Shown: positions 3,497-63,598 of the stretch, piece after piece
Layout: the number at the start of each line of letters is the position of its first letter
Position numbering within the stretch: the first letter of the stretch is position 1
DNA from: Polytrichum commune
Taxonomy: Eukaryota > Streptophyta > Polytrichopsida > Polytrichales > Polytrichaceae
DNA: 64,000 nt
Assembly (NCBI GenBank): GCA_950295325.1
Contig: OX485806.1
Coordinates: 16,926,001-16,990,000, forward strand
Direction of reading: 5' to 3'
The notes under the pieces: model-generated
Seen by the model: the letters and a program-made list of their open reading frames with translations, nothing else
What the model was told of the DNA's origin: nothing
The model's database searches: none
Translations under genes and position numbers: made by a program

Positions 3497-3639
3497 TTGG
3501 TGGAACTTTCAGTAACCTACACACATGTCCAAGGCCTGTAAAAGGCTTCAAGGTGTGTGAGCTTCAGAGAAGCATAAAAAATTCAATGAGTTTTAAATTG
3601 ATGCAACCATAGGAGTCATCACTTAGGGGGGGGGGGGGC

Positions 3640-7397: not shown

Positions 7398-9122
7398 GGT
7401 GTGGTCCGCATTTTGGATGCGCACAAGGTAGTCTAGAATGTCCTCTCTTGCCATCTTGCCTTCTAGCAATGCTCTTTCCTCGCTCACAAGGCCCATGGGT
7501 TTTGGAGGGCGGAAATCATTGTCCTCTTCCGTATTGGCAGCTTCGTGGACATCCATTCGTGGCAAGTGGCAGTCCTCTAGAATTTGATCCAATGTGCGAT
7601 CCTTGCTCGCAAGGAGGATGTTGTGCAGTACACAACATGCATGCACCACAGTGGGTAAGAAGTCAAGTTTCAGCGAGGTCTTAGTTCCAATTTCCTTGAA
7701 CCTTGCTTTGAGTATCCCGAATCCCCGCTCGACGCTCATTCGGGTTGAGGAATGTTTGCGATTGAACCAGGCTTCCTCTGCCGTTAGAGGCATCCCCATG
7801 GGTCCTGTCTTGAAAGGTGTTATGCACCAGATCAAGAGGGGGTACCTGCGGTCCGCCACTATGTAGGGAAGAAAAGGAAGTCCCGCAGGCCATGTCATAG
7901 GGTCGTCATGGAACCCTCCCATTATTCCCTCCTCCACTCTCCGATACAACTCCGATGACTTGAAATGTGTGTTGTCATGCAAACTGCCTGGAGGCCCTAT
8001 GTTCACTGATGTAAAGTAGCACTTGGTGTCCACCACGCCTTGTAGTAAAATAGAGAAAGATTTGTTCCGATTGCGGTGGTCGGCCGCCACAATACTATTG
8101 GGCGGCGCTTGAATGTACACATGCGATACATCAATAGCCCCGATACAGTTAGGGAGCCATTGCTTGGACTGGAAGGCGGAGGTCACCCTTGCCAATCTCC
8201 TGCTTGCAGGCCACGCAATGAGGTGACTGAAGTTTATGCTAATGGCCGAGCACACCTGCCTTAGAATTTGGTGCACCGTGGATTTGCCTATGGCGGCCTT
8301 GTCGGCGACAAGAGTTATTGAAACACCATGCATTAGCTTGAATAGTGTCACAACTACCTTTTTCTCAACACCAACGGGTTGCCGCCAGTGCGTATGTTGT
8401 CCTTGAATGTATGGGCGCAGGTCGTGCACCAACCGGTCGAATGTTGTCCTTCGCACCCGCAATATGTCGTAGAACATGTCGGGGGTGTATATGTTGAACA
8501 GGTATTCCTCGAACCAGCACGTGGAGCGTGGCTTGACATACCACTTTGCATCCACGACATGAATGTGCCAAGCGAGGAGGTCAAGTAGATCTCTCACATG
8601 TGGGTGCTCCAACTCGTCCTCCTCGGGCTCATGTTTTGCGAAAGGATTGGGTGCTGCATCGACGCCTCGTTCCTCAGTCCATCTTTTTGTTCGTTTTTTG
8701 TATGCAAGTTGTGCTCTGCTTGCCTCGGTTGATGTTGTGTACATGTGCATGATAGCGACGGACATGTCAATGCACGCCATGATGACGGGAATGGCGGAGG
8801 TCAATTCTAATGCACCGTTTGAATCTACATTCGGTGGAGGGTGCAGAGGGTTGTTGGTCCCCTCTCCGCATGGCGGCAGTGGGCGTACGGGCGAGAAAAT
8901 TGGTGCTGCAGGAGGAGGCGAATCAATGCCAAGAAGACACTCCAGCTCTGGAGTGGCAGCCGAGGCCGTTGGTGTGGCAGCAGGAGCGCACCGCACAAAG
9001 GCAGGCACGTCAAGAGGCGGCAGCGGGGACGTGGGAGGGTCCACATCTGGGTCCGAGTGAGCTGGGATATGCACCACAGAACTTCGAACCTTCACACACA
9101 AATAGACGCAATTTAATGGCAT
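7374..9122 (-). CDS. PIF/Harbinger transposase (DDE_Tnp_4 / HARBI1-like)
   Basis: Cuts and pastes the element using an RNase H-fold DDE nuclease. The 582-residue frame is uninterrupted. Residues 1-100 are a Pro/Ala-rich leader. An HTH-like region lies around 225-290 (TTFDRLVHDLRPYI, then VADKAAIGKSTVHQIL). The catalytic core follows with D331 (IGAIDVSH), D424 (IVADRRYPL) and E465 (SVERGFGILKARF). The HACCVLHNIL motif typical of the family is present near 494-503. All three catalytic acids are kept, although the residues after D331 and D424 differ from the common GTH and SGYP. The first ATG is at 9122; an upstream exon is possible because an AAG-GTTCGA donor-like site occurs near the N-terminus. 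It is transcribed toward the convergent Myb-like ORF. Confidence 0.9.
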   Translation of the reverse strand: MPLNCVYLCVKVRSSVVHIPAHSDPDVDPPTSPLPPLDVPAFVRCAPAATPTASAATPELECLLGIDSPPPAAPIFSPVRPLPPCGEGTNNPLHPPPNVDSNGALELTSAIPVIMACIDMSVAIMHMYTTSTEASRAQLAYKKRTKRWTEERGVDAAPNPFAKHEPEEDELEHPHVRDLLDLLAWHIHVVDAKWYVKPRSTCWFEEYLFNIYTPDMFYDILRVRRTTFDRLVHDLRPYIQGQHTHWRQPVGVEKKVVVTLFKLMHGVSITLVADKAAIGKSTVHQILRQVCSAISINFSHLIAWPASRRLARVTSAFQSKQWLPNCIGAIDVSHVYIQAPPNSIVAADHRNRNKSFSILLQGVVDTKCYFTSVNIGPPGSLHDNTHFKSSELYRRVEEGIMGGFHDDPMTWPAGLPFLPYIVADRRYPLLIWCITPFKTGPMGMPLTAEEAWFNRKHSSTRMSVERGFGILKARFKEIGTKTSLKLDFLPTVVHACCVLHNILLASKDRTLDQILEDCHLPRMDVHEAANTEEDNDFRPPKPMGLVSEERALLEGKMAREDILDYLVRIQNADHTSRHPQRT

Positions 9123-10154
9123 GAAACAAGAAACATAGCGAGGTGTCGAGCATAGTTAGTGGTACTCGTAGGCAACCAGGAATGGCGAGCACAGCAGCTG
9201 CCACCCGCAGCAGAATGCCAGAGTTCAAAGTTTAGTCGTTATTGGTTTGTAGGTGCAGACCAGAACTGTGATGAACACGGAAAATTCTGGCCATATGTGG
9301 AACATGCTTGTTGGCAAGGACCAGTTTGTTTATACAGTGTATTTGAAATTTGAGGCAGCCAACTCTGCCCGATGCTTCCAATGACTGATTACATGTTTGG
9401 GCTATCTGGTTGTGAGAATGTGGGGTTGCCTTGTTGTGGGTATGGACCCCCAGACCCTAGAGTCTGGCGATTGGAAACCGTAATGCCCAGCAGGGCCAGT
9501 AGCCCTTGCCAAGAGCGCACAGCAATGATTACGCAACTCCTCAGACCCTAACAAAAAAACCAGTCGTGCTACTGGAATCGGTCAAAGAGAAACAGAACGC
9601 AGAGTTTCAATAATGGACAGGACCCCAGGCTCAACATACACTCTGCCAACACCTGCCCACACACACAACGAAAAGAACCTAGAAACAAAGTAAAAAGCAC
9701 AACAAATACCATGCGATGTGACACAGAGAGACTGAATGCCCGGGAGTGCGCGGTACTGGCAGGGAGGATTACGGCCGAGTCCATTCCAAGTTGCGTCGCA
9801 AACGTCGAGACTGATCTACGGTGCATGCCACCAAAATGCCTGAACCCGAAGCCAAAAAACGAGGTGCAGGGGACAACACGGCAGTATAGCATGCAAATTG
9901 GAGAGTGGGCACAGTTGAAAGAACACTCAGGGCAACCACAAGCATGCGAAACTGCCCACGTCTGGAGGAATGGTGGCAGGAAAGCTGAATAAATGCCAGC
10001 AGAATGAATTTTGTATTAAATCACAGCAGCCAAATTGGCATACCGCAGGCAGCAGGGAACTGCATGGATGCCACGATACAGAAGAGCATGTCACGGTGCA
10101 GAAGAGGTTCTCGTGAAAGGTGAATTCTAAAATGTAACCTATAACTGCAAGCAC

Positions 10155-20026: not shown

Positions 20027-20379
20027 TTAATAAGCACTCGTAGTGCAAGGTTTCAAGTACTCACATTTAATTATATTTGGACAAACCACTTAGATGTAGG
20101 TTGCTTGCGCACTACATTCTAGATAATAGTGGGTTGGAGGTGTTTTCACGTAGTTAAACAAAAGCAATCAACCAACCACATCCTAGTGGTCTACTAGAAT
20201 ATGGTTGCTAGACTTTCATGCGTCACTAAGAGCAAGCCCAATTGTTCTTGGATCTACATCTGCATCCGGGAACGAAAAGTGGCCTCTGTCCAAGATGTTG
20301 ATTTAGACCTAGGCAAAATTGTCACTTATTGTGCATTGCCTTCGATGCTATCTCTTGAATTTCGTCTAAAATGATCTGT

Positions 20380-20590
20380 AGTTTTTCTAACATCGTGAAC
20401 TTCAACTGATTATTTCTCAAACTCATTTGGTTCATTTGTAGCTGGTACATATCTTGAAGTCTCAAACCTTAACCAATAATCTCTCAAACTCATCCAATTC
20501 ATCTGTAATTGGTAATTAACCTGAAGTCTCAAACCTCAACTAATTATTTCTCAAACTCATTTGGTTCATCTGTAACTAGTCCATACTAGT
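20380..20590 (+). repeat. Tandem partial copies of the ACCGGTT dispersed family
   Basis: Three diverged tandem units contain TCTCAAACTCA and GGTTCATCTGTAACT-like segments, matching the 3' part of the repeats at 21488, 24328, 40086 and 59798. Confidence 0.6.
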
Positions 20591-20955
20591 GAAAAGAAGT
20601 ATGTCAAAAGTTTAAATAATTTTAGTCTTATTATATGTATCCCTCCTTGGATATCTCTCACATATGTAGGGAGGCTCAACATGTTGTCCTTACTTTTCAC
20701 CCGTCTCCTCCATGTGTTTTTATGGTCAAATTATTGTGAGCTACATCTTATGGATGGAAATTTGTTCAATGACTTTCTCATTGGAACGTGAAAGTGGGTA
20801 GTATATGCAATAAAGGCCTATTTACTTCACGGTTTATATCTTGTGTATGTAGTGGATGCATTTATTCATGTAGGATACGAAACCAAATCTTAAATCCACA
20901 CCTAACTATATAACACTCAACTATACATGTCCAAATTATTGGTGTGTTCAATTTA

Positions 20956-21303
20956 GGGCCGGCTCACATGGGGTCCCAAGTCCCAACACGGAGGCAAAGT
21001 CCCAACTTTTCAACCTCACAAAACCATTTAAATATGGTTAATTATCCTTAAAGTCAAATCTTCATTTCTATGCAAAAAGATTCACAGGACTTGTCTTGGG
21101 AGTTGGGTCTAGCTTTTTGCTCAACCCAATTCTCAACACAAGTCCCTCACCTCACCTCTAAAAAGTGTTGCCATGTAGGCATCCATGTCATACTTGGGAC
21201 TTGGGACCCTATGTGAAGTGGTAAGTCCCAACTTCCATGCTCTCAACAACTAGGATTGCATGGATTGACCTCACGTGACTTGCGACCCTCTGTGAACCGG
21301 TCC
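20956..21303. mobile_element. Tourist-like MITE
   Basis: Left end GGGCCGGCTCACATGGGGTC and right end (complement) GGACCGGTTCACAGAGGGTC form an imperfect inverted repeat. TTA flanks both sides (20953-20955 and 21304-21306). Non-coding, 348 bp. Confidence 0.8.
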
Positions 21304-21487
21304 TTAGACTCATCTACCTTACCTTTTCTTCACACATTTCCTTCTCATGCATACAGAAGAAGAAAAAAGACCACGTGTAATATTCACTATTATTGATATA
21401 TAATAATTTATAATCATTGTTATCAATATACAAAGAACAATTTACTTGTAATCCCTTGTGCAATTACAAAATATGTTAGTACTTGTG

Positions 21488-21707
21488 CCCAGGAAGTTTC
21501 TGGACATGGTCGATCAAGATCCTAGTGATTCTAAATCCAACCAATTACATGTTGACATCTTCCGGTTTTGCTTTATTCACTTGAGGTATATTCCATAGAT
21601 TCCTCTAAAACAATCGGTAATTCTCTTGAACTCTCCAACTTCAACCGGTTCATTTCTCAAATCAACCGGTTCATCTGTAACTAACCACCGGTTCTTCCCG
21701 GACATAG
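21488..21707 (+). repeat. ACCGGTT dispersed repeat, copy
   Basis: About 220 bp with the order GGTCAAGATCC, CATGTTGACATCTTCCGG, TCAACCGGTT and TTCATCTGTAACTA. Seven related copies in both orientations occur in the window. Ends resemble GTCCGGGGAGA inverted repeats, so it is probably a small non-autonomous DNA element. Confidence 0.65.
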
Positions 21708-22743
21708 GTTAGTGCCAACTTCCCCTCTGTAAGAACAGTGGACTTACAGTTTAAATATCTAGTCAGATCAAGAATTACATCTTGACTTGGTGCTTATTCA
21801 CATGCACGATCACTTTTAAGTTTACTGAATTAAGTGGGAAAACCGTCATTAGAGTCCCTCTTTTTTAGAACATTCTGGATGTATATATATGTGGGGAGCT
21901 CGGCTTATCCTGCATTCGCATTTGGATTGCGATTGAAAAAGTACTAAATTCAGATGTAGATGTAGGATGAGTGGAGATGCCCTTTACCCATTCTTGGGTC
22001 CATACGACTATTCCATCAATGGACGGGTATTCTCTCCTTTTTGAGGACGAATGGGTGAAAGGGTCCATGCGACTTCACCCTAAAGGATGGGTTTACATAA
22101 GGGCCCATGTCCAAGTAACTTGGCGTCCAAAACACTCCTTAATGGACTTTATTTTTGGATTCCTGAGATTATATTTCTCATTCTCATTATTTTTTTATGA
22201 ATTTTATGTTCGATGAAACGTGAGGCAAAAAGTCAACGCCAAATGAACTAAGAATTAAGAGAATAATGTCCTTTTTTAGAGGATAGGAGGAGCCCCTCAA
22301 GCGTGTCACACCTCCACGTAAAAACAAATGAAGACTTTGACCTCAAGATCAGACCTAAGGTTGAAATTTGGTTCCATACACTAGAAAAATAGTCTTTTTC
22401 CTTGGGTTGGGACTAATGACATTTGACTGGAAAGTGATGCCACAACAGTAACCTCGGCCCTAGAGTAAACTCCTTAGGTCCAAAACTTTTGCTCGTGACC
22501 AAATAGGATTGCTCCATTTTGGAGTTTCTTTGGTTTTGGACCCTATGCAAACCCACCCTTGTTACTATCCACATCTTGTTTGAGCAAATGCATTTGGCAC
22601 TTGAGAAAATATTGTTCAATATTAGGCTTTAGATGCACCATATAAGAAGTGACGCTGCCAATATTTGAAAAAATCAGCCGACCTTCAAAGAATAGTGAGA
22701 TGCGAAAGTGCATCAAACAAAGACATTCATGTGTATACAACTT

Positions 22744-23134
22744 AAGGGCCGCTTTAGACTACGGTGGAGAAGTGCACCGTTCAGTCAAGAGTTTTCAACC
22801 CAAAACAAGGTTATTTGAGGCAATGGTTGGTATGCCCGACAAGATGGGGGCGGGAGGAAGGCCTCAAGTTGGAGTTGTCCAGAGACCAAGTTTCTTGTCC
22901 GAGGGTTTGAGATTGCCCAAGAAACTTGACCTCTAGAGAACTCTCATAGCAAAACGTGTTGTCATGTTGACCATCATGCCAGTTTTCCCATTCATGCTCG
23001 AAGTTCTCCACTAAAGAAGTCTTGACCATGATAGTGTAAACCCCGATCAATGAAGAATCCGATTCATAGCCAATCATATTGCTCCATTCCCCCGAAATTC
23101 TTGACCCGTGCACTTCTTCACCGTAGACCTAACC
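22744..23134. mobile_element. Probable Tourist-like MITE
   Basis: Arms share CTACGGTG(G/A)AGAAGTGCAC in inverted orientation near each end, and TTA occurs at both boundaries. The outermost bases match poorly, so the exact ends are uncertain. A second inverted pair lies inside (AAACTTGACCTC and its partner near 22860-22935). Confidence 0.6.
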
Positions 23135-23563
23135 AGTCGTTAGCGTGGAGGAGTCGGATGTCCAAAATTCCCAAACTCCGAGGAATTTAACACCCCTTAA
23201 TGGAGTTTGCCTGCCAATCAAAAGAGGCACGACAACAGTGGATGGGTGGGTGGGCAGTATTGGCTACCAGTTCCATAAGTAAGATAAAGTGTGGTGAGTT
23301 TGCCTCCCGATCAAGCAAGGGCACGATATCCCGTATTCTTGGATCTATTTTCGAGAGTCTAATATGCTCCCGAGCTTGTTCAATCTAGACATGTGCTTGT
23401 GCGATTAATAACATTGTGACCACTCACAACTAGGAGATGACACTCGCTTGCGATTCCCTACATGGCGATTGTTGGCAGGCGCAAGTTTCACTGCCACCCA
23501 ACAAATCGCCTATCAATACGCATCAATACGAGCGTTGTGTGTGACATGATACCACCTGGTCAA

Positions 23564-23788
23564 TGAACGGGGAGAACGAAGCGACCGCTAGTCACAGATG
23601 AACCGGTGGAGTTGGAGAAATAAGCGGTCGAAGATCGAGACTTCAGGAAAGTTACCCATCATTTTCATGCAATATTATACCCCAATTTAACCAAGAAACG
23701 CTGAAAGATCACAACGTGTAACCGGTTGGAGTTGGGAGCACTCGGATCTCGACCGCTCGCTCCTGCCCAATACTCTCCCCGGACATCG
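23564..23788 (-). repeat. ACCGGTT dispersed repeat, reverse copy
   Basis: Begins TGAACGGGGAGA and ends TCTCCCCGGACATC, with CAGATGAACCGGT and CGTGTAACCGGTT inside. Reverse complement of the family at 21488-21707. Confidence 0.65.
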
Positions 23789-24327
23789 CACCTGGTTCCA
23801 AAAGCTAGAGAAAGTTTCTTGACGATTTTATCCATCTTTCAGTTGGTCTTTGGCTCGATCGGTCCCCTTCGATCGAGCATGGGTCCACCAGTTCGAAAAT
23901 AATAGACTTTACACAACACATGAGAATGGTTACCAGACGATCTTCACGATGATAAAACCAAGTTTCTTTTTCGTTCGTCATTGGACTCCTTTCATTCCTG
24001 TAACAACTCGCTTGTAATGAGGATCCAATTTCTCAGAGAATCCTAAATTTTTTAAACAAAATTAATCACACACACACTCACACACAAAGCTCGGGCTCAG
24101 ATGAAGCCTGCAAACTGCAATCATACACCTGGAAAGGTGGTTTGCCGCAAGATCCCCCTTCAAGGCAGGTGGTAACCTAACTTGCGAAGAATGGCCCACA
24201 CCTTTGAATATTCAAGCTGGATTCACAGTACGTTCGTAGATTCAAGCTTTCCAAGCTTCATAGTGTTGGCTTTTGGTTCCCTGGATATCTGCCACCAACT
24301 GTAGAGAGCCAGAGGATATGGATCAGT

Positions 24328-24563
24328 GGCCGGGAAGTGTTTGGGCATAGCCGGTCAAGATCCCAGTCATTCTGAATCCAGCCGGTTACACGTTGACATC
24401 TTCCGCATTTGCTGCTTTATTCATTTGGGCTATATTCTTCTATATATAGATTCCTCCAAAACGATGTGTAATTCTCCTGAAGTCTCCAACTTCAACCAGT
24501 GTTTTTCTCATCAAACTCAACCGGTTCATCTGTAACTAATTAACCACTGGTTCTCTCTGGACA
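24328..24563 (+). repeat. ACCGGTT dispersed repeat, copy
   Basis: Contains GGTCAAGATCC, CACGTTGACATCTTCCG, CTCAACCGGTTCATCTGTAA and ends TTCTCTCTGGACAG. Confidence 0.65.
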
Positions 24564-25241: not shown

Positions 25242-26674
25242 CCCGGGGGGTGCATGTTGCATAACATGTATGAGTATACCTTAGTGCACAAAAGGGGTGT
25301 CATTTTAAATTTTGCCATACTATGTATACATATGCTACACAAATTGTAGCTCGTAGTTATGTACATGTTGAAGGTCCTCTAGAAGATATACAACATTTGC
25401 ACTTGCATGGTAGTCTCACTAAACTTTATGGGATGAGTATTTAATATTGGATGAAACTAGGATAAATAAATTTCTCGTTTCCCTTATCTCATCCATGATG
25501 TATGGAATAGGTAGCATTAGGGTTTTGGAAGGGGCCGTGGAGCTGGGAATGAGGGCATTTCTAGCTTTGGGTTGCAAGAGGAATGGGTTGTGTTCCTTTG
25601 TGGGGGATGATTAAAGGGGATGCAGGTGGTTGATGCAAGTAGTGATTGTAGGCATTAGATGACTTAGAGGTTAGGTCTTGTCGCAAAGGTCAATATAAAA
25701 GTTTGTTGAAATTGCGAAGGTGCTTAAAACTCCTTTCTTTATTCCTTAACACATTGCCCCTGCCTCCTTTTGGATGCTTGTCACATTAGTGGTTTTCTGT
25801 ATTTGATTATGGAAGCAACAATAAGTGTTTATACATAAATTCCTCCATCAATTGAATTCTTGGTTTTAGATAAAGAGAAAATGCTTGTCATGTCTCTGAA
25901 TGAAATTTTGGCTTGTATTAAAACATGCATGGTAGAGACTAATTAACAACTGGAATAAAATGGGACAAATATGTTTTTTTTGTTCAAGATACTTTTAGTT
26001 TTGATTACTATTAGAGCTACACGATGCATGCAAGGAAAGTCAAGACAAGAACACACTTGAAGCTAGAATTGTCAAATTTGTGGTAGATAAAAAAAAATAG
26101 CTCCAATTACGGTTTGATTTGTTGAGAGGGTTTATAAGACACATAGAAAATTTGGTAATCATCAAGTGGAGTATATGGATCCAATTGACTTGACAGACCA
26201 TCCATCAAACATGGAGATTAGCTTACGATCACAAAGGCCAACAACAAATGGACTTACAATCTTACTAATCATTTGATGACAAACTTCTTATGACCTTACC
26301 AATCTTTGGAAATAATAATTACATTAGCTTTTATGACATATATTGTAGACTTAGATGCTTACGAGTTGCATCTAGGGGATGGAAAAGTCTTCAACAATTA
26401 TATGATGAATGCTGGGATTTTGCATTTTATATATATATGATAGGGGTTGATTGTTATTCCATAGTACATTTGTATACTTATGTTAGTACCTATATAAGAA
26501 AGTATTTTTGTTTTGTTTTGTCATGTATACATTTTGTCACTTGTATTTTTACCATTCTAATTGCATGTGTATTGCATGATTTTACAAAAACAAAAACTTG
26601 TATATAGGGGTTTTTTAAAGTATGTTGCAAACACACATGGTTCTTGGTTCTTAATGAAAGGTGCAGCCCCTACA
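25242..26674. mobile_element. hAT-like non-autonomous element, long copy
   Basis: Left end CCCGGGGGGTGCA and right end (complement) TGTAGGGGCTGCA match the CTCGGGGGGTGCA ends of the copy at 62875-63598. Flanks TTCCCATG and TTCCTATG form an 8-bp duplication with one mismatch. It shares several hundred bp with the short copy, including a GATCCAATTGACTTGA segment. It has an extra middle part of about 700 bp. No intact protein. Confidence 0.8.
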
Positions 26675-40085: not shown

Positions 40086-40522
40086 TGTCCGGGGAGACTT
40101 TGGGGCATCACCGGTCAAGATCCTAGTGTTTCCAAGTCCAACTGGTTGCATGTTGACATCTTTTGGATTTTATTTTTGAATTTGAGGTACACTCCACAGA
40201 TTTTTTTTAAATGATCAGTAATTATCCTTAAGTCTTGAATTTCAACCGGTTATTTCTCAAGCTCAACCGGTCCACCTATAACTACACAAAATATGATATT
40301 TAGTGTGACTTATTGTTTGGAGTTACATGTTTTCTATATCTTTTTATGATTAATGTATTTTTTTACTAAGCAAAGATGTTAATGTTCTATAGTGTGCAAA
40401 CAACCAATTCAACCCTGGTTGGTAAAAAATGAGATGCACAGTAGACAGTTATAGCATTGCGTAATTCCAAATAGTAAGTCACACTAAATATCATATTTTG
40501 TGTAGCGGTCAGTTCTCCCTGT
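40086..40522 (+). repeat. ACCGGTT dispersed repeat split by a MITE
   Basis: Left part 40086-40281 contains GGTCAAGATCC, CATGTTGACATCTTTTGG and CTCAACCGGTCCACCTATAA. The remaining right end CGGTCAGTTCTCC continues at 40506 after the MITE. This gives a relative age: the repeat is older than the MITE. Confidence 0.65.
40282..40505. mobile_element. MITE with 45-bp inverted ends
   Basis: Arms start CTACACAAAATATGATATTT at both ends and match at about 42 of 45 positions. The interior matches 32310-32400. Target duplication cannot be separated from the palindromic CTA/TAG ends. Non-coding, 224 bp. Confidence 0.75.
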
Positions 40523-43215: not shown

Positions 43216-46200
43216 ATGACGATGGACGTGTCGCAGGATGCAAAGCAAGGAGTGGATTCAATGGAAGTGGGGATGGTGGTGACCCTGGAGGAAGCTTTGG
43301 CAGAAGCAGAGCTGGAGGCAGTGAAGACACGCACCATCAACCTGGACCAGGTGTTGGAGCTTGCAAGAGTCGAAGCGCAACATCCAAGTGTAGTGGCCGT
43401 GTGGCGAGACACAGACGAGTTGGCTGGTGGACATGAGAAAGTGGTGGCCGAACACATGCTTGGGGCAGCCTTCCCTGCATCCACCACAGGAGGACGCAAG
43501 AAGGTGAGAGAGAGAGAGAGGGAGAGAGAGATGTGATGAGAGAGGCTCTCCACCCAAGCTTAGAGAAGGAAGTCACATATTAAATGATGATCTTCCTATC
43601 ACCCTCCAGCCTCTTTCTATTCATATGTAGATTACACTTGAAGTCTCTTGACAAGACTAGAACTGTGTCCAGATACTACAACACCGATCGCTTGGTTGTT
43701 AATGCATCCACTTTAAATGTTAAGTTCCTCATTAAGTGAATCTGCAAGGTTGCTTGAGACCTTTTGGTGATTGGTGTAAATTAAACTCTTGGAGAAGGAA
43801 GTCGCATTCTAAGCTGATGATCATTTTCTCACCCTTGAGCCTTTTTTTAACTCACATGTGGATTACACTTGTAGGCTCTAGAACAAGTCTAGAACTTGTG
43901 TCAAGATACTAGAACACCGATCACTTGGTTGTTAATGCATCTACTGTAAAGCTTAAGTTCAACATCTAGTGAATGTGTAAGGTTGCTTGAGCCTACCTTT
44001 TGGTGATTTATGTAACTTAAGCTCTTGGGATCTCCAACAGGTGGCCGCTGCACTCGTGATCGGTGACTCCCTGGAGCCGCAGGCGGTGGGACATGCACTC
44101 GTGATGGCAGCCAGTGGAGGCCACATCAACTGCGTGCGTCGTCTCCGTGAGATTCAAAGAGAGCACATGGGAGCAAGCATGTTGGTGTCACGGTTCGCTG
44201 CTTTTGCATTCCTGAAATCTGCAGAACAGGGGCACGTGGAGATAGCCAGGGAGCTTCTGCGGCCAACAGCATCGACAAGCACCGCCATGATGGGGTACGC
44301 CATAGCCACCCGGTGGAAGGACAGCAAGGATCAGTCAGCATCCTCCTCCAACAACAACTACCCGTTTGTGAAACCTGCCGAGAATATGCCAGGGAAGGAG
44401 TGGTTCCAGAAGCTAGCGTCCACGAAATCACTGCTTCCACGAGCTGCTGCACCGATCTTCCGGCCAGGGGTCGGGTGGGAGCTTCGAGGGTTACCCGCGG
44501 TGAGGGATGAGGTCCACGACGCCATCCGCGCTGCTTACACAACTTACCTTGTTTGGAGAGTTGCAACCGTGGCAGCGATGTACTGCCATGCGGATGTGTT
44601 CAAGCTTCTGCTCAAACAGCGAGCCCTGGAGAACACCATATTGGCAGACACGTTTCATGACACCTCCAGATTGAACAGGGGATTCGACAGCGAAGGTAAG
44701 AAGGTGATCGCCGACCGGGCCAAGATGGATACCCTCTTCTACCAGCTGGTGGAGGAGCTGAGCACCAAGAATTACCATGACTGCATCCTGTATGCGCTGT
44801 GGGGCCACATCCAGCGGGGGGGCAGAGACTCCCCCCGGCCACATGCGGGGCGGCCGAGATGCGTTGCGCAGGCGCAGTATGGATTGTGGGAGATGCAGTT
44901 GGAGGTCCCCCTCTTGATGATGCCGGTGGAGCACGCGTTGCAGGACTTGGAGCCGTATCGGCGCTACAAGCATCTCACGCAGCTCTTTAGCCAGAGGGCC
45001 AAAGTCAACATCCAGCTCGTTGCCCTTGTCGAAGCCATGCCCACCTACATCCAGGTGAGAGCTGATTCAAGACCTTATTAATGTTGCACAATTAACAATC
45101 ACTAATGATTTCATTCACAAAATTGTATGTCTGGAGCGGATCCTTGTGCTTGTTGTTCGTGACGGTAGCATTGGGGGAGGTCGGTCTTAAAGTCCTGATT
45201 ATCTATCATTGGTTTAGGTCGTGGTCTTGAGAGAAAATTAAAGTGATTATTGTCCTTGTTGGCTTCGGATTGTAGTGTTAAAGTATTGGTTGCCTCCTAA
45301 ACTTTCTCCTTGGACCCTAGGCCTTCAAGCTCGATAGTGATGCCACATGAACAACCACCCCAAGAAGGATGGTTAACCATGCGCAGTAGGGCCGGGGTTG
45401 ATGGGGTTAAGGGGTGGTTGGCATTCAGTATGCCTTTTCCATGGGAATAGAATTGAACAAAGTAAAGCACTGCCATGACCACAACCACCACTAGTGTAAA
45501 CACCCCTTTAGATGTTGTAGTTTGTGAAATCCTTGCGGATGTGGAAATGGTCCGATTTTGGGTCAAGTGGAGGAATTCAGCCCCTTTTGCAAACATGTCA
45601 AACTGTTGGTACATGGTGGCAACATTGATTGATCACGGGAGGAAGATGATTCTGGCTCGATGTGATGCCGGCTCTAAACTGATGTTCGGGAGATGCTTAA
45701 GGATTTATAATCTTATTTGAGTCAAGTGCAGGAATTAGCAAACGTTGCAAACCTACATACATCAGGAGTAGCCGATTTCTCGTCAATCAGCTTCCGTATC
45801 GATAGAGCTGCACGCGTTCTTTTTGGTGATTGAAATGTTAGTAGTGTTCCCATCACATGAGAAAGATGTGGATTTTGTATTTATCGCCTCTACGGTGATG
45901 TCTGTCATAGCCTTAAGAAAGTGGAATCCGATTTTTAGCCAAGTGCAGTAATTAACCCATGCTGCAATTAACCTATGTACCGAGTCCTCGTACTGAAGCT
46001 GTTCATCAGCAATTACGAAAGGAAGATCCTCACTCAGACCCAAATCACATGACCAGAAGGCAAAGTAGGTCTACTCCCGCTAGGGTGGTAACCTTGTTGG
46101 CGTCATAAAATAAAGTGTTCAATGAAAACATTCCCTCTTCCAATTTTTATTCTTCCTCCCCGCTTTTACGATCTCGGGATATTGTGCCGCTCCTTTGCCA

Positions 46201-48897: not shown

Positions 48898-49680
48898 CTT
48901 CTCTTTTGAAGAAGACCCGGGGACCTAATTTGTACCCCTGCAGCAGGATCTGTACCATTTTTATGTCTGATGTGGTTCTCCTGCCGACCACCACCACCCA
49001 TGGGCTGGTCAACACCAAAGATATGGCAGTAATCCGGGAACTCTCAACATACTGGTGCTCTCATAGAGTATGTGTGTCGAGTTTGCTCTATCAAATAAAA
49101 TGGGGAAATTTTTCATGTGAACTATGTGTTGTTTGACTCATCAGAATTGAGATCTCACAAATGACTTAGTGATTGCACTTCTCTTTGAACTACTCTTTGA
49201 ATATCTGGGGACCTAATTTGTCGCCTGCAGTAGCATCTGTACCATTTTTATGTCTAATGTGGTTCTCCTGCTCGCCAGCACCAAAGATTTGGCAGCAATG
49301 AAGAACTCAAAACACAGGTTCTCATAGAGAGTGTCCAGTTTGCTCTATCAAAATACAAAAGGAAAATTTTCATGTGCACTATATGCTGTATGACTCATCA
49401 GAATGGAGATATCACGATTCACTTAGTAACAGCACTTCTCTTTGAGCCTATTTTTGGAACCTGTGGACCTAATGTGTCCCTGTAACAGGAAATGTCCCAA
49501 TTTATGTCTGATGTGGTTCTCCTGCTGGCCAGCACCAAAGATATGGCAGTAATGAAGAACTCAAACCTCAGGTTCTCTCACAGAATATCCAGTTTGCTCT
49601 ATCAAAATAAGAGGGGTTTTTTTGCATGTGAACTACATGCTGTTAAACTCATCAATATGCAGATCTCGCAAATAAGTTAA
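48898..49680 (+). repeat. Three tandem repeats of about 255 bp between convergent genes
   Basis: Units start near 48895, 49167 and 49432. Each contains CTTCTCTTTGA or CTTCTCTTTTGA, GGACCTAAT(T/G)TGT, TGTCT(G/A)ATGTGGTTCTCCTGC, CAGTTTGCTCTATCAAA or a near variant, and ACTCATCA. They lie just after the stop of the ankyrin-like gene and about 290 bp from the ZMYND10 stop, so they probably form shared 3' flanking sequence. Confidence 0.85.
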
Positions 49681-49965
49681 TAGTAATTGAGTTTTTCTTC
49701 AGTTCATTCTCGTCTTTTGATTGTTTGGGTGCTACGTATTTTTACTGAATGCGATTTCTTTTTGGTGAACTGTAATGGAAAGTTGCATGGACCTGGCGTT
49801 CCAGTTTCTAGCAGTGCATCATAACTCTGGATCCGGGGCACACCAACTCCAGTCTTGTTTATGTTGGCTTCAACAATTCAAACATTCCTTGTCAAACATT
49901 GGTGTGCCTCACAGATTCCTCAGAGTGTTGAACAGCTGGATAACTTGCTTCTAATTGGTGCTGCA

Positions 49966-52900
49966 TTACTTCTGACTTGTATTAACTATGAGATCGCAAG
50001 CAGGCTTGTGAGCCTTCCAGACAGAGACTTGACATTGCCGCCCACAATACCTGCAAATTGATGAAGGACAACATTTTACTTACCGTGAGTCCAAATACAA
50101 ATAGGAGTACAGTCAACCCAACATGATCTTATTGTGTATAAATATGATTGATAAATCATGGAGCCATTCTAATCAACACGGTGCATTAATTTTAATGCCA
50201 CACTAAATCATATGTATAGTGTACCTCTTGCCACACAGAAGGGCCACCCATATACATTAGGGTATTGGGTGGCAACAAGGAAGGTGGCATGGGACACTTG
50301 TTATTACATGGAAAAATCATGGAGCCACTCTAATCAGCACGGTGCATTATTTTTAATGCCACACTAAATCATAAGTATAGTGTACTCTTGCCTCAGAGAA
50401 GGGTCACCCATATACATGAGGGACTTCTGTCCCACAAGTCACTTTTGTTGGGGAACATGTGTTGCATGAGCATGCCTTGATTTGAATCATTTATCACAAT
50501 TGTCATCGTTTATATACTCCATGTAGCCCTCTATATAAATTTGGGGCTTGAGTCCAAATTTATTATCATGGAGGATTTATAAGTATCCGAAGCTCAAACC
50601 GAGAAATTTCCACTCATGTATTGGTCAGGTCAAGAGATTTTGTTGAGGTGTCTATTTAGGATTGGATACCTGAAGACAGACTATCCCTCATTATTGATGA
50701 CCTTGTCAAGGTGTGACCACTATGTATGGTTACGGACAAATTTCACGAGGTGCTCAACATTATTTGACCAGTGTCTGCGATCATGGATGCTCTCTAAATG
50801 TTACTTTGACCTCTCACTTGCAGAAGCGTTGCGTATACCTAGGGGAACTTTACATGGAAAGACTACTGAAATGGATCCTGCTTACATGTCTGTTAATGGA
50901 ACTGACAACACAAATTGCCCATTGAAAGGAATGGATTGCAATGGTCTTCTAAACTTCCAGTCGGGTGTTATTAGAGTGCAATAAGCATTTGTACCAGTCA
51001 GCTTTACAGCGTGAGCATCGTTGTACTGCTGATTTCCCACAGACTGCACAAGTGGGCTGCTCCAACAATTCCTGCAACCCAACCCAGAATTGCTATACGA
51101 TGCAAATAAATCTCAATTTCAAACGACCTCCCCCTACAAGTAATAAAACTCAGACAACCACATGTGCAGATTGCAGTGTAGTTACAGCTACTCATCCATG
51201 CTTTTGGTTTTGTGAGTGAAATCCATTGCTGACATGGTGGATGTATCTTTGTACCCCAAAATGGAAGAGTTTGAGTATCTCTTGAGCTTGATGGTGAGTG
51301 GTGACTTCAGACTTTTGTGAAAATACTGTCTGCAATTGGTGTTGGGCAATTTCTCCTGCAAAAATGCAATTCATAACAACTTCAAGGGAACCTGTTATAT
51401 GCAAAGATGAGCCACTTCAAAGCCTTTTTCAAGTCTGGTTCGTTACCCTAATTTCAAGTGGACTGGGTTAAGGCTTCAATCATGATGGAGATACTATGGA
51501 AAAGAACAGGCTTAAACGTTAATAAGGACTATCTAATGCCTAGGAGATCATCCTTTAAATGAATTCGCTAGGAGTTGTGAATTCACTCCAATTCTTTCGG
51601 CGTATCAGAGTCTCCCGCAGCTCAGGCACCTGACATATATCACAAAAGCGAATTTTTCTCAACGTGAGTTTGTGTGTGTGGGTGTTTGGTTGTAAGCCAA
51701 GAGAGTACACTTTCTGCAAACAGGCAGTCGAGTCATGAAGTCCAGTGTGAGAGAGGCCTGGACCTAAGCGCATCTTTACTCATGGAGCCACAAATGGGCC
51801 TCTACCATTAGCTTTTTCGGCCTTTTAAGGCAAGACCGCAGGTTACGTCCCACCTCCAAAGTCCATATGTATCCAAATGTCTTATCACCCATCTATTATG
51901 TCATAGAGGTCTCTCTCAAGAGCCCTTTGACTTGCCATACTTAGAGAGCCGAGAGAACACTTTTATGACATAATTGGTGGATAGTGACATTTTTAGATAC
52001 TTATAGGAGGTTATGGGTAGGACATACCATGCGACCTTACCTTAAAACCTATGAACGGGGAGATCCAATTGCTAGTTACAGATGGGCCAATTGAGTTTGA
52101 AAATGACCGGTTCAAATTCAAGACTTTAGGAAAATCGCCAATTGTTTTAGAGGAATCTATAAAATATACCTTCAATTAATAAGAAAAACCAAAAGATATC
52201 AACATGTAACATGTAACCAGTTGGAGTCGGAAACACTCATGAATCTTGACCAATTGTGCCCAAAATCTCCCCGGACACCGCTAAATAGGCTTAAATAGCC
52301 AATTGTAGAGGCCTGTTTACATTTGCGGCTCCATGAGTGAGGCCCTAAGACTCTTGGTAATTTCATGCGCGAACTTAAATATCGTTTACCTGAATACATA
52401 TATGGAGACAAGAAGGATGTAGATGGCTTTTCCGGTCTTAAGGTCAATATTTTACCAAGGTCATGCTCTTTACAATGCTAATAAATATTATTGAGGAGAT
52501 GACCTGCTCAATGATGAGACGACCTGATATGGCCTCTGGAGCAGTCTGGGGCACCTGGAGCACAAGCTGCTCTACTGCCTGGCACAAATTTTAAGCTACC
52601 CAAAATGGGTTTGTTTAGAATTTCTTTCCTCAGTCACAGAGCAGTTAGCAAGGAAGACCGTGTGGTATTAAGTCCCCAAACTTTCCATTATAGCTAAAAC
52701 AGCAACCAAAATTTTGATAGATTCATTGTCAAGAAATAGGTGCTTTCTTGTGCACGTTAATTTTGATAAAATACACCATGATGTAGAAAGATCACCTAGT
52801 AATCACCCTTGTGCATAGGTTGATGTTGAGGATAGTGAAATTCTAGGTTCAGCATAATGACCTAGGTTAAACAAGAAATAGATAGATGGATACATAGAGT

Positions 52901-55900
52901 AGAGGCACCCATAACCGATCATTTAAGAGATTATGTGCAAGATTGGGAAAAGTATAAGGTGGTACAATTTTTTCCCATCTAGGAAGATAGAAAATCAAGA
53001 GGACTGCAAATTTTCAGTAATTTTATTCCTTAAATTGAAATAACTATGAATTTTTGAAGTCAAAAGTTGGCCCGAACATATTACCAATGTTTAGAGTTTG
53101 CCATAACTGCTCATTCCTCCTCACTTTAGCACTCAAAATCAAAACATGTGTCATGGCATTATTGATTTGGGCCTTATAGGAATTTAGTCCTAACTCGATC
53201 AAAATTCCAGTACCCTATAGATTGCCTGTGGGGTCCTGATCGGGAATAGGTGTCTCTACTGTAATATGCATGAGGTGCAGAGTTGGAGGGCCTGAATACT
53301 GACCCATTTCAAATCTTTGAGGTTTGGCAATTGATCCAGGAGGATATCAATCAAGTATTTCCGAAGCTGCACAGGTCTTGCAAAAGATAAGACAGATCTT
53401 GACCAAGACAAAACACACCATCCATTGGAAATGGGAATAGTACTCATTTCCTTAACAAAGACCTTTATAACGACAGTGTGACTTTTAAATGGAATCAGAC
53501 ATTCATGTTCAGGATAGAAGGTAACCTTGAGGACTTGAGATCGTCGGAAATCATCATAAGTGTACTTGCAACGGCACCGCAAATCCACAATCAAATTGTA
53601 GAGAGCCAACCAAAGCTATCAAGCATCATGGGCCAAAACACCGAGTGTAAGAGATTTTGGACTACCACAAGATTTTACAAACTTGAATGAGTTACGCAGT
53701 TCCAATTTTATTTGCTGGAAAAACTCCAACATCCATACTGAACGATAGATACATCTGACAATTAGTGCAGTTTTGCATACTTATGGGGAGAAGGTCGATA
53801 CACTTTAGGAATACAATTATACATGACAAAATTTCCACTCCAGAGATAGACATCAAGAATACAAGAAATACTAAGATGAAAACCTGGGCATCAGGCTTGG
53901 TCAACTTGAACCAATCACCTGGTTTCACTTCGATCCACTTGCCTTCTACATACTTCTCAATCTGCACCCAGTATCAAAATTGGAGCACTTGCAAGCCCAC
54001 ATCTTATTCGTTTCATAAAGGTTGATTGAGACATACTTGGTTTCTACAATAACCATATGCTAACACTGATATACTGGGACACCATTCCACTTTATGTTAC
54101 AGTTTAACTCCACTGAAGAGAATGGTAAATAGGTTGGGAAATCAGCTGGCATTCTTATGAAAGGCGTAGACAAGGATATAGAGCTTAACCACAGGTTTTC
54201 CAGAGCGGACACGTTTTCGTTGCCAAGGAGGATTCTCCACAAGAGGCACAAGTGCCATAATCATGTCATGACAGTCCAGGATACGTGCCTGCACCATTGC
54301 TCATCATCAACTTATCCGCAAAACATCATCAGAGTTCTATTACACCACATATATCTTGCCGCTTAACAAATGACCACATAAGATACACCAAGGTAAGTGG
54401 GCCTATAACAGATACTTTAATCTCTACACCCACTTTTCCTAGGATATTAAACATGCAATAACTACAATATGATTAGCTAATCCAACTCAAGGCTGTAGTC
54501 ATTTTCCTCATACTTCTTGGAGCTCATGTGATGTTCTATTCATTATCAAAGTGAAAGGCTCTCTTTCTTCTTAGATGATCATATAGGTCCCCCCAATTAT
54601 GTTGACTATTGAACCTAGAATGTTTAACAAATTTTGAGCATGTAGTCCAATCTCTATCTTTTTCATGTCCATTCTTTGATCCACACATAGTCACACACCA
54701 CTTGAATATAGATGTCCTCAAAAGATAAATAGCCGAATTAGGCCTGCTTACCTTACAGTATATGGAGTTCAACCTAGAATAAAATAAAATCATTGTGCTC
54801 ACCATAACCGAGAGAGGGAGGTCGCTCATGTAGTCTGTCAGGTATCTGCACTGTGAAACTCTCAAAGTTATCACGACAGCATGTGGGCTTCAAAAGGTTA
54901 TATTGAATAATGGCTTCTCAGTATTGGAGTAGAGTACAGTCCTCTTTTATCTGCAATGTCTTCAAAGTTCTCAAGTTCATGTGAAATGTACAGTTGTTTA
55001 CAGTGATTGATTGACCTTCTACATATACCATTGAAGTAATTCTCAGCTCCATAATCGAATCATATTTTTACAATGAAATGTGAATTGGGCTATAGTTTCT
55101 CCTTGTTGAGTGTGAAGTGTGTACCTCAAAACTGTCAGTGAACAGACCCCAATCCCGAACTGCATGCTGTCCAACTGCACATGCACAAAACGAAATTTTG
55201 AACTCAGATACCAATTGGAGAGCTCCAACTTCAAGTATGACTTGGAAGGATGAGAGTCATGATTCTTGATCCTTGATTGATTATTCTGGTGCATGACGCA
55301 AACCTTTTCTTTTAGCTCCTCCTCAGGTGTCATGTCAACAATCTCCCTTGCACTTCGTTCTGTACACAAACTCAACAAATGTGGTGTTTAAATCATATAT
55401 GTATCCTTTTTGTTGAGTTGGACGCAGTAAATATGGATATATCAATCCCCTAACTTGTACTAAGCAAAATCCAGAGGTTTTGATATCGTGATACTGTCTC
55501 CCTGTCAGAAAGCAAGCAGGAAAGCACCCATATTATCCAAGAGAAGTTTGAACATATTGGACATATTTAGTTTATCCTTGGACTAATTTCAGCTCAGTTG
55601 AATTTGTCTTTGCAATTTGGAAATCTCAAAGCATCAATGTCAAAAATCTGTTTCAGGTGATACCTATATAAGCTGCATCTTGAGCTCCATCTGTATTGAG
55701 GTACACAATTTTACGGTAGCAGTAATCTGCAAGCTGGAACCATCAACAGATCCACAACATGGACATCATGTTCAGTGTTTTGTGCCCAAAAACATCACAA
55801 GACCCGCAAGGGGTCCAAGTTGTCTCCTCCTCAGAAATCGAAATTAGGGATTCAGCATTTACAAGGTAGCGAGTAAAGTCATTGAGACAACATGATTACC

Positions 55901-57334
55901 TCAAGAAGAGAGGCTGCATTCATGGATTCGCACACTTCTCGGTGATACAAGATCACCTGCACACCAAGCAAATGGCTGACATGAGTTTCACAAAATTGAT
56001 AATTGACGAATATGAGGTACATGTGCTGTACTGAAGAGCAAGAAAATACCTCAAGCAAGTTGATGATGGTTGTCTCCTGATACAACACAAGGTGGAGGTT
56101 GATGTGAGAAGCCTGCTCTGCAAGTGGTTTCTTAATTACCGGGAGAACTTTGTCCTTCCAGATCTGTGAAACAAAGTACAACATGTAATAATTAGAGAAA
56201 ACCAGAGGTGGACAAAGGCAACAAAAGATCACATGTGAGTCACTTTGTTGATATTTACCACCAATTTATAGAGCGAAAGCTTGCTGAATGTGCAAGTAAA
56301 AAGAGGACTGTGGATATTTTGAATTTAACTGTATTCTGCAAGTAATATGTTGCAGTTGTTGGTTTTCACAGAGTACTGACTTCAATTACAAGCAGCTCAT
56401 GTATGAGAACTCCCAGTTTGTCATGACTTGTCAATGCCTACACACTCACAAAAGCCCACATCTAATGCCTCAAACCTCAGTTTTGGCATTGCGATCACTA
56501 TGTAGTGTTACATGTAAAGTTCTCATCAGGAATATTTGAAAGAGAATGCACAGATCAATGTATTCGCAAGGTTTATATTTTCGTCACAACCTGAGGCAAT
56601 AAAGAGATTCCTACATACCACCATGACAAACTCATCACAATGTGCCATTGTATTATAATGTGCCTGCAACCCACCCAGTGTACTAAGTTAGTCAGCTTTA
56701 TTAATTATTTTAATAGTGAAATTTTCATCAAGAAAGAAATTAGGGCTATCCGCCCACCTCCAACGGAGAGCATTCAATAAGCACTAACACAAACCCTGAT
56801 TCAACTTTAGTTGGATGTCAAACAAGGTGTGCATCTTGGTGAATTCATTGCAATTACCTGCAAGTTCAGTTTCTCCAGGTTTGAGTGCTGTGTTAACCAT
56901 TTTCTGCTTCCCACCTGCATCAGCTTCCACATACTTCACAATGTGACGTGATCACAAACTTGACCTATTACGGAGTGTGTTCTCTTCATCACCACCTTCT
57001 TTAACCCTCGGAGCTTTTCTTGAATGTTAACAATGTAGTAGCATAAGCAGAATGTAGGATGATTAATCTTATACTGGCCAAAAATTCTCATAAGCCGGTC
57101 CGGGAGCTGAGGCAACATACCATGTCAACCCCTCAGAATCGAATAAGGACCATGGATCCCGACCTCGATAGCGAAGAATATAATGCGTGCCAGTTTGTAA
57201 CAATTTCTTTACTTTCTTGCCAAGTTAGGAATTACCTGCTCAATGGAGAAGGTGGTGAGGTACTGCACGATGAATTCGGCATCCTCTCTGTTCAACAACA
57301 CCTGATCCAACCAGCGCCAAGACATTTCAAACAT
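49966..57334 (-). CDS. ZMYND10: ZMYND10, MYND zinc-finger dynein-arm assembly factor
   Basis: Cytoplasmic factor that, with LRRC6 and chaperones, preassembles axonemal dynein arms. Nineteen exons join to 452 residues (human 440): 57236-57334, 56858-56914, 56619-56663, 56381-56437, 56050-56163, 55900-55956, 55664-55733, 55304-55359, 55125-55174, 54803-54845, 54190-54288, 53884-53961, 53526-53615, 53304-53366, 52504-52578, 51587-51629, 51255-51355, 50995-51071, 49966-50050. All introns are GT-AG and all phases agree. Family blocks in order: WLTQHSNLEKLN, IWKDKVLPV, ETTIINLLE, YHREVCES, RYLTDYM, LALYNL, ILLDQLPNL and IAQHQLQTVFS. The C-terminal MYND finger has all eight ligands: C407, C410, C418, C421, C427, C431, H439, C443. 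The ATG at 57334 has an in-frame TGA just upstream. Intron 14 contains a 365-bp transposon and intron 10 a dispersed repeat. No disabling change was seen. Confidence 0.95.
50151..50432. repeat. Duplicated 112-bp segment in ZMYND10 intron 18
   Basis: Positions 50151-50262 and 50322-50432 share AATCATGGAGCCA, CACGGTGCATTA, AATGCCACACTAAATCATA and CACCCATATACAT. Both lie in the 944-nt intron that splits the MYND finger. Confidence 0.8.
52053..52279 (-). repeat. ACCGGTT dispersed repeat, reverse copy
   Basis: Begins TGAACGGGGAGATCC and ends TCTCCCCGGACACC. It lies in ZMYND10 intron 15. Confidence 0.65.
52897..53261. mobile_element. TA-flanked non-autonomous element in ZMYND10 intron 14
   Basis: Inverted ends GAGTAGAGGCACCCAT and (complement) CAGTAGAGACACCTAT share an inner CCGATC. 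TA flanks both sides. It is related to 25159-27166 but lacks the two nested insertions found there. It begins 43 bp beyond the exon 14 donor and does not disturb the exon. Confidence 0.8.
54390..54754. repeat. AAGGTAAG-family dispersed repeat in ZMYND10 intron 10
   Basis: Inverted ends AAGGTAAGTGGGCCTA and (complement) AAGGTAAGCAGGCCTA differ at two bases, which suggests a MITE. It is the best-preserved copy of the family in the window. No target duplication could be fixed. Confidence 0.7.
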
Positions 57335-59797: not shown

Positions 59798-60018
59798 GTG
59801 ATCGAGGAGATTTTTGGGCATAATCAGTTGAAATCTTAGTGTTTGCAAATCCCACCGGTTACATGTTGTTATCCTTCGGTTTTCCTTTATTAAATTGGGT
59901 ATATTCTATAAATTCCTCCTAGAGGATCGGTAATTTTCTTGCAGTTTTGAACTCCAACCAGTTATTTTTCAATCTCAACCGGTTCATCTGTAATTAACTG
60001 CCAGTTCTCTCAGATCAT
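59798..60018 (+). repeat. ACCGGTT dispersed repeat, copy
   Basis: Contains CACCGGTTACATGTTG, TCTCAACCGGTTCATCTGTA and a decayed GTTCTCTCAGATC end. Confidence 0.6.
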
Positions 60019-60577
60019 AATTTGAGAGTTGTATGTTATTGAGTAGGGTCAGAGTGATTGTGAAGGCTTTGTCCGAAGTCTATAATAATGAGAAGTTTTT
60101 TTTATTATTATTTGAAAATAATTCAAAGTCTGGTTATTGATGAATGTGTGAGAAGTTCAGAGAGGCTATTGCCCCACGCACATGCCACAAAAACCTGGCG
60201 GATGCCAACGAAATCCATCCGCGGAACGTTGGCGCCGTGGCGGAATTCTCCCGTCGCCGGAGACCACCGCCAGCTGCCCTGCACGCCGTTTCAGGGCACC
60301 TTTTACTGCAACTTTTACTGCACTTTCACCACGCCATTTACTGCACCGGATTCACAACCGGCGAAATTACCTATGGCAACTTCGATGCATCTTCCAGCCA
60401 GGGACTCCAAATTGTCCTCTGTCGAGGCCAGGGGTTCCAGGCCAGAGAGTCCAGGGCATACTCATTTGCAGGTTGAGTGTCCAGGCCGTACTCTGGAGCA
60501 AGTTTTTGAGCTAGGGTTTAAAAGTACCAGCATTGTTTTATTAGTTTTTGGTCGTAGGAAGTGCACGTTTAATCGAT

Positions 60578-61555
60578 ATGGACGGGGAGAACTATCTGAT
60601 CACGTTGTTAGGAAATAGTCCTCCAAGCTTGGTTATGACGCAGAGTTCTCAAAATTCTACTCCGGTGTCTTCAGTTCCACTCTCTTCCATTCCCGTTGCT
60701 TTTGTTTTCGTTAGTTCTGTGTTGACAGGTCCACCCCCTCCTCTCCCACGACGGGCTCCGGTTGTTGTGTAGGAGCGGCATTGGAGCAATGCTGCTGTGA
60801 AATTTTTATTGGAACAATGCAAGGAACACGTCGAGGCACACAACACGATCACGATGCGATCGTATCAATGGGCGTGGGTGCACAAGTTGTTGATTACGCA
60901 GTTCCCTCAGGAGTCTGGGCGGAAGGTCAAGTCCTTGTCAGACAAGTGGGAGAAGTTGCGGAGCACCTATTCCAAGATCAAGAAATTGCGCAACCAAACG
61001 GGTGCAGGTGTGCGGGACAACGGTGCGAAATTCATATGGTACGATCAAATTGACGAAATTCTTAGTCTCACTGCAAAGGCCAACGGTGTTCCAGGAGCAA
61101 TGGACGAAGGGGTGTCCGCGCTCGTGCCCGGTACTTCCAACGCTTCGACGGATGGTTGTGAGGAAGCCGACGGAGACGGTGAGCCATCTTGGGTGCACTC
61201 ACCGCAGCGCACCAATCTCGAAGCACACAGTGGAACTGACCAGCAGAGCAACGACACCACTCCACGAACACGAGCATCGAATTTAGTCGGGGTTTCGGGA
61301 AAAGGTACTAATTCCACACCATCTAAACGGGCTAGGATTGACAGGAATTTGATGGATTTATTGGATAGACTTGCAGATTCAACTGCTGAGATAGAGCGGT
61401 TGAGAATCGAAGCTGCACTAACAATGCACAAAGATAATTTAATAGAACGCCATGAAAACATAAAATTGGAACTTGAAATGTTTAGATTGCAACAGGCGAG
61501 CGGGGAAAGGATGGCAGCTATGTTTGCAGAAGTTGTTAAAAAAAATTCTCAATAG
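60578..61555 (+). CDS. Myb/SANT-like (trihelix) DNA-binding protein
   Basis: Nuclear DNA-binding protein of the family shared by plant trihelix regulators and Harbinger ORF1. Likely start is ATG 60578. A TAG at 60770-60772 interrupts the frame just before the domain, but TTGTTGTGTAG there also reads as an intron acceptor. A T-rich intron 60664-60772 (donor GTGTCT, phase 0 on both sides) would join the parts. The domain has spaced tryptophans in HWSNAAVKFLLEQ, SYQWAWVHKLL and LSDKWEKLRSTYSKIKKL. An acidic, Ser/Thr-rich linker with a KRAR basic patch follows, then a C-terminal coiled coil (LADSTAEIERLRIEAAL to MFRLQQASGERMAAMF). No transposase or terminal repeats were found around it, so it may be a host gene. 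Confidence 0.7.
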
Positions 61556-62874: not shown

Positions 62875-63598
62875 CTCGGGGGGTGCACTGTACTAAACAT
62901 GTATGAGTATACGTGACTGCACAGGAGGGGTATTGATTTGGACCTTGCCGTATTACGTATACATATAGTATACATGTTATAATTCATAATTACGTACATA
63001 TATGGAAGGCCTTTAAAAAGTATACAATAATTGTACTTGTATGGTGCTGTTACTATACTACATATCATAAGTTTTCATATTGGATGAAATCGTTTGGAAA
63101 TCGTTTGGTAATCGTTGGGTGGAGTATAGGGATCCAATTGACTTGATGGACCGTCCATCAAACGTGGAGATTGGTTTATGTTGGTATCAAAAAGGGGCTA
63201 ACAACAAGTGGACATATGATCTTACTGATCATTTGATGGTAGACTTAGAGACAATAATTGCATTGGCTACAATGACATATATTGGTGAATGAAATGTTTA
63301 TGAGTTACATCCGGGAGATGAAAAAGTTTTCAACGACTTTGTTGATTAAAGCTAGAATATTTTGTTATACATATTATAGGGGTTGATTATTGTTCAAAAG
63401 TATATTTGTATACTTATGTTAATGACTATATATGAATGGATGTTTTTTTGTGTATACATATTGTCACTTGTATATTTATTGTTGTAATTGTATGTGTATT
63501 ACTTCATTTCACAAAAAATAACTTGTATATAGGGGGTTTTTAGAGTATACAGTGAACGCACGTGATTCTAGGTTTTAATGAAAGGTGCACCCCCCGAG
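62875..63598. mobile_element. hAT-like non-autonomous element, short copy
   Basis: Perfect 13-bp inverted ends CTCGGGGGGTGCA, flanked by a perfect 8-bp duplication ACATCGCC (62867-62874 and 63599-63606). It shares its left part and its last 500 bp with the long copy at 25242-26674. An open frame at 63080-63292 (WVEYRDPIDLMDRPSNVEIGL) is a relic of the parent's coding region. The perfect duplication suggests a fairly recent insertion. Confidence 0.9.

Follow-up and report, generated by a model that had tools for sequence, protein, structure and literature searches.

A probable ZMYND10 orthologue in Polytrichum commune, a moss genome in which only inner-arm dynein heavy chains were found

Does a non-seed land plant keep a working ZMYND10 (DNAAF7), a gene on which the building of sperm-tail motors depends, and which dyneins would such a protein serve? 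The question is raised by a stretch of 64,000 nucleotides (nt) from Polytrichum commune (assembly GCA_950295325.1, contig OX485806.1, positions 16,926,001 to 16,990,000 of the forward strand; hereafter the window), whose minus strand carries, from an ATG at 57334 to a stop codon ending at 49966, a gene of 19 exons. With considerable confidence, we take this to be a functional-looking ZMYND10 orthologue, whose product would most likely act in sperm as a co-chaperone for axonemal dynein heavy chains, as in animals. Judged by its sequence, the gene is a normal orthologue, an ordinary relative within an already known family, and one that a flagellate plant would be expected to have.

The likeness to ZMYND10 extends over the entire protein. 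The joined coding sequence of 1356 nt, stop codon included, holds no in-frame stop and encodes 451 residues, of which residues 10 to 444 align colinearly with a working copy of the human protein, 168 of 442 columns (38%) being identical. The only Pfam family found in the protein was zf-MYND (PF01753, 37.7 bits against a cut-off of 22.7, E 2.1e-09), and the two highest-scoring of its 37 PDB matches with E up to 1 were MYND domains from ZMYND10 itself (2d8q and 2dan, 38.6 and 36.2 bits); CBFA2T1, DEAF1 and SMYD proteins have the same zinc finger, but their match is confined to it, and the best of them, CBFA2T1 in third place, reached 22.8 bits. All eight zinc ligands of the finger are kept (Table 1). 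At V16, L39 and L266, positions of missense changes in human patients, the plant residues are identical. Human W423 aligns with W435 of the plant protein, and its mutation in human ZMYND10 has been described as interrupting the binding of FKBP8 and HSP90 (PMC6044906). The differences from the human protein of 440 residues are modest in extent: the plant protein is 11 residues longer, and a linker at about residues 157-185 has diverged. An earlier sequence-only reading had already proposed the 19 small exons, the colinearity with animal ZMYND10, the complete set of MYND ligands and the split of the finger by a 944-nt intron, all of which were borne out; its protein of 452 residues was one residue too long.

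The exon structure was obtained via splice-aware dynamic-programming alignment, with the working copy of human ZMYND10 as the guide. The alignment scored 726.1 at the gene. The 29 controls, made up of the plus strand of that stretch, six further 7.9-kb stretches from the window, each on both strands, 10 protein shuffles and six DNA shuffles, gave 163.8-272.3. All 18 introns are GT-AG, the only type that the aligner permits, 16 of the 18 acceptors read CAG, 14 of the 18 introns are in phase 0, and the G+C content is 46% in the coding sequence versus 39% in the introns. The free alignment had 22 exons and began at 57310; by manual refinement exons 15 and 17 were extended by reading frame, exon 1 was taken to the ATG, and three small exons (52842-52807, 51228-51186 and 51148-51138) were dropped, as the frames of exons 15 and 17 already encode those residues. 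The 19-exon model was preferred because of the very small size of the three extra exons and because the extended frames account for that portion of the protein. The score alone does not decide between the two: against the human guide, 22 exons gave 294 bits and 19 exons 292, which leaves the ends of exons 14-15 and 17-18 less secure than other parts of the model. Variants in which exon 15, exon 17 or both were shortened gave 286-290 bits, removal of exon 15 gave 278, and retention of intron 18 gave 274. In its MYND region, the guide agrees with PDB 2d8q at 44 residues; it also has Q366 and W423 at the expected numbers, and has the same length as human ZMYND10 at 440 residues (PMC12633730).

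Which dyneins the protein would serve was approached through the genome, which comprises 407.8 Mb in 64 contigs. Seven are of chromosome size (77.9, 70.3, 59.2, 59.1, 52.9, 44.7 and 42.1 Mb, together 406.1 Mb), and nine of the remaining 57 were measured, each at 147 kb or less; the window lies on contig C4. Polytrichum-type mosses have n = 7, and the genome points to a moss without proving it. A profile search with PF12774 (AAA_6, the first AAA module of the dynein motor), whose counts are lower bounds, gave at least 37 exon matches, the weakest kept at 26.5 bits; 36 fell within eight strong heavy-chain loci (Table 1) and one was a weak piece elsewhere. In a PDB comparison of the pieces joined for each locus, all eight were closest to inner-arm chains, which led the highest-scoring named outer-arm chain among the best 60 matches of each by 128-254 bits, and an outer-arm chain was the nearest match at none of them. 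The outer-arm matches were to DNAH9 or DNAH17, which we take to be outer-arm chains. Several 8glv chains bear generic names, some rows are marked putative and a few names are plainly misplaced; generic 8glv top matches were read as inner-arm on account of their length and the named chains alongside. By this reading, the eight loci would represent both I1 chains and six single-headed inner-arm chains.

No cytoplasmic dynein was named among the best 60 PDB matches of any locus, and the PF12774 search, with its lower-bound counts, brought up no heavy chain of a retrograde-transport dynein; transcripts for the latter have been reported in the fern Marsilea (PMC4947347). The weak ninth piece (37.5 bits, at 3811-4558 of the 9-kb region C2:18738000-18747000) has an internal TAG, and the AAA1 peptides of the eight loci match this short region only, the C6:10.0 Mb gene best at 63% over 65 residues; it is probably an incomplete copy of a gene of the inner-arm type and was left out of the eight. 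The inner-arm light chain p28 (PF10211) was found at one locus in five pieces (C5:50.95 Mb) and the assembly factor CFAP298 in two pieces (C1:54.36 Mb).

Taken together, the heavy chains, p28 and CFAP298 show a genome that makes motile axonemes, whose arms are apparently all inner ones, and as the motor genes found are all of inner-arm kind, ZMYND10 probably serves inner arms here. That outer-arm dyneins are present and were missed, so that ZMYND10 would serve both arm types as in animals, is improbable. The search scores only the best candidates and its counts are lower bounds, and the absence of a match to ODAD1_CC, of the outer-arm docking complex, came from a genome search that lacked a working control and does not demonstrate absence; an outer-arm AAA1 exon would, however, be expected to reach scores similar to those of inner-arm exons, well over 26.5 bits, although this is an expectation and not a control. 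In addition, moss sperm have been described with inner arms only (PMC4168999), moss and fern as without outer arm dynein (PMC4415241), and Marsilea as a fern in which outer arms were not seen (PMC2239267). The motile-sperm reasoning of the sequence-only reading is supported by the dynein set, and its appeal to dynein-arm assembly holds as regards the presence of axonemal genes; it probably needs narrowing to inner-arm assembly, with no outer-arm heavy chain among the matches.

Several points weigh against the identification of a working orthologue. The gene model is known here from genomic DNA alone, the human reference is a working copy and not a database entry, and the comparison was with that guide rather than with a homologue from another plant. 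The guide has Y at 379 and T at 378, and PMC6044906 names T379, so the guide may hold a small error. DUF4471 of the assembly factor DNAAF3 gave no match, in a genome search that lacked a working control and does not demonstrate absence. A recently silenced gene or pseudogene, intact-looking since its decay has only begun, would fit a locus whose three longest introns (944, 874 and 725 nt) all carry repeat copies, but we hold this to be very unlikely in view of the 451 open codons in 19 exons with good splice sites, and of the dynein heavy chains, p28 and CFAP298 in the genome, by which the need for ZMYND10 persists. Least credible of all is a different MYND protein, ZMYND10-like in its finger only: MYND fingers are common, and 10 other places in this genome have one at E up to 0.001, but the human match covers the whole body of the protein and the finger is closest to that of ZMYND10 among PDB sequences.

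None of the eight of those 10 places that were checked, with about 1.5 kb on each side, looks like a second ZMYND10, as the match was limited to the finger or absent, in a check that an intron-split finger could escape. The window outside the gene gave no match to the protein below E = 1, and a search for its relatives in viral and prokaryote genome contigs gave pattern candidates, none of them confirmed.

A mechanism for the orthologue can be proposed on the animal precedents. In mouse and human cells the proposed course is that ZMYND10, together with FKBP8 and HSP90, acts first on axonemal heavy chains and that LRRC6 is its partner thereafter (PMC6044906). ZMYND10 also stabilises an intermediate chain, an effect that requires the MYND finger (PMC5895051). 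In the moss, ZMYND10 would be a cytosolic co-chaperone of developing sperm, its expression perhaps confined to sperm-forming tissue, that would bring axonemal dynein heavy chains into a chaperone cycle of HSP90/FKBP type, the dynein arms being formed before they enter the flagellum. Given the inner-arm set found in the genome, its clients would likely be inner-arm heavy chains only. The FKBP partner may be of the plant FKBP42/TWD1 type, FKBP38 being FKBP8. Plant FKBP42/TWD1 has been called an FKBP38 orthologue and binds HSP90 (PMC12484997), which would make it the natural candidate. The combined proposal, that ZMYND10 serves no arms but the inner ones and that this FKBP38-type immunophilin stands in for FKBP8, is a tentative one that we would not back over its alternatives. 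If it were true, the moss would be a natural separation of function, in which outer arms were lost while ZMYND10 was kept; the basic job of ZMYND10 would be heavy-chain folding and not outer-arm assembly; and TWD1 would gain a second client system besides ABCB transporters.

The interest of the gene lies in its use as a natural inner-arm-only test of ZMYND10. The papers on the protein consulted here deal with animals and Chlamydomonas, in which both types of arm occur. Outer as well as inner arms are found in human cilia, whereas only inner-arm heavy chains were found in the plant genome. The Chlamydomonas protein (Cre08.g358750), a green-lineage member from an alga with outer arms, was up almost 29-fold during flagellar regrowth (PMC3689809). 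A genome with ZMYND10, p28 and CFAP298 in which only inner-arm heavy chains were found would allow one to ask which assembly factors inner arms need alone; the moss Physcomitrella has served a similar argument about HEATR2 (PMC4168999). Among the papers listed by searches of the open-licence literature, none has a plant ZMYND10 as its subject to judge by title, so the gene may well have been recorded in plants already.

Table 1. Parts of the ZMYND10 gene (window positions) and dynein heavy-chain loci of the genome (contig and position), with the best inner-arm PDB match and the best named outer-arm match (DNAH9 or DNAH17) of each locus
Feature	Position	Strand	Description or inner-arm match	Outer-arm match (bits)
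Exon 1	57236..57334	-	start codon at 57334, M1-Q33; extended to ATG by hand	
Exon 2	56858..56914	-	conserved W..QH.NLEKLN core	
Exon 3	56619..56663	-	splice-aware alignment	
Exon 4	56381..56437	-	splice-aware alignment	
Exon 5	56050..56163	-	WK.KV.PV ... IINLLE	
Exon 6	55900..55956	-	H.EVCES	
Exon 7	55664..55733	-	splice-aware alignment	
Exon 8	55304..55359	-	linker, poorly conserved	
Exon 9	55125..55174	-	splice-aware alignment	
Exon 10	54803..54845	-	splice-aware alignment	
Exon 11	54193..54288	-	splice-aware alignment	
Exon 12	53884..53961	-	splice-aware alignment	
Exon 13	53526..53615	-	W.ALYNL	
Exon 14	53304..53366	-	LLDQLPNL	
Exon 15	52504..52578	-	start 52578 by reading frame and homology; free alignment: 52545	
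Exon 16	51587..51629	-	splice-aware alignment	
Exon 17	51255..51355	-	end 51255 by reading frame; free alignment: 51306	
Exon 18	50995..51071	-	MYND finger, first half: ligands C406, C409, C417, C420	
Intron 18	50051..50994	-	944 nt, interrupts MYND finger inside codon W424	
Exon 19	49966..50050	-	MYND finger, second half: C426, C430, H438, C442; stop codon	
Heavy-chain locus	C1:55.6 Mb		590 bits (8glv_Cn; DNAH10 next)	385
Heavy-chain locus	C2:14.6 Mb		525 bits (Dynein-1-beta of inner arm I1)	322
Heavy-chain locus	C7:0.11 Mb		474 bits (8glv_Fm; DNAH6 next)	327
Heavy-chain locus	C1:51.3 Mb		572 bits (8glv_Mm; best named chain DNAH3)	318
Heavy-chain locus	C3:44.2 Mb		407 bits (DNAH3)	278
Heavy-chain locus	C6:10.0 Mb		530 bits (8glv_JG; best named DNAH7)	343
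Heavy-chain locus	C6:24.1 Mb		559 bits (DHC2)	381
Heavy-chain locus	C1:15.1 Mb		534 bits (8glv_JG; best named DNAH3)	339

The repeats within the gene are of several kinds. Intron 18 holds a duplicated 78-nt unit (50147-50224 and 50308-50385) in a repeat region at 50147-50422, the 874-nt intron has at 52099-52182 an inverted copy of a repeat also present near 21.6 kb, and the 725-nt intron has at 53012-53103 a copy of one located at 26.7 kb. A tandem array of a 254-nt unit (48937-49710), with about 2.6 copies, or up to three by a second repeat search, lies between ZMYND10, at its 3' side, and an opposite-strand open frame ending at 48823. Rfam (at gathering thresholds) and tRNA scans of the window gave no match.

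Elsewhere in the window, a stop-to-stop frame of 593 residues on the minus strand (7374-9155) has a DDE transposase domain (DDE_Tnp_4 4e-29, Plant_tran 3e-13), probably of PIF/Harbinger type, and two plus-strand frames, at 6633-7397 and 60773-61555, resemble by eye the Myb/SANT-like partner protein of the transposase, the latter with a sub-threshold Myb_DNA-bind_4 match and the former without a Pfam match. An exon-like minus-strand frame at 3182-3508 strongly matches the adenylate kinase family (PF00406, 1.4e-26), and a plus-strand frame of 366 residues at 43981-45081 has weak ankyrin-repeat matches (PF00023, 8e-05). One repeat family is dispersed over 20356-24510, 40086-40307 and 59799-60019, in copies 60-85% alike and in both orientations, and three short direct repeats recur with their order kept at 26151-26649 and 63104-63574, about 36.9 kb apart, probably as two copies of one old element.

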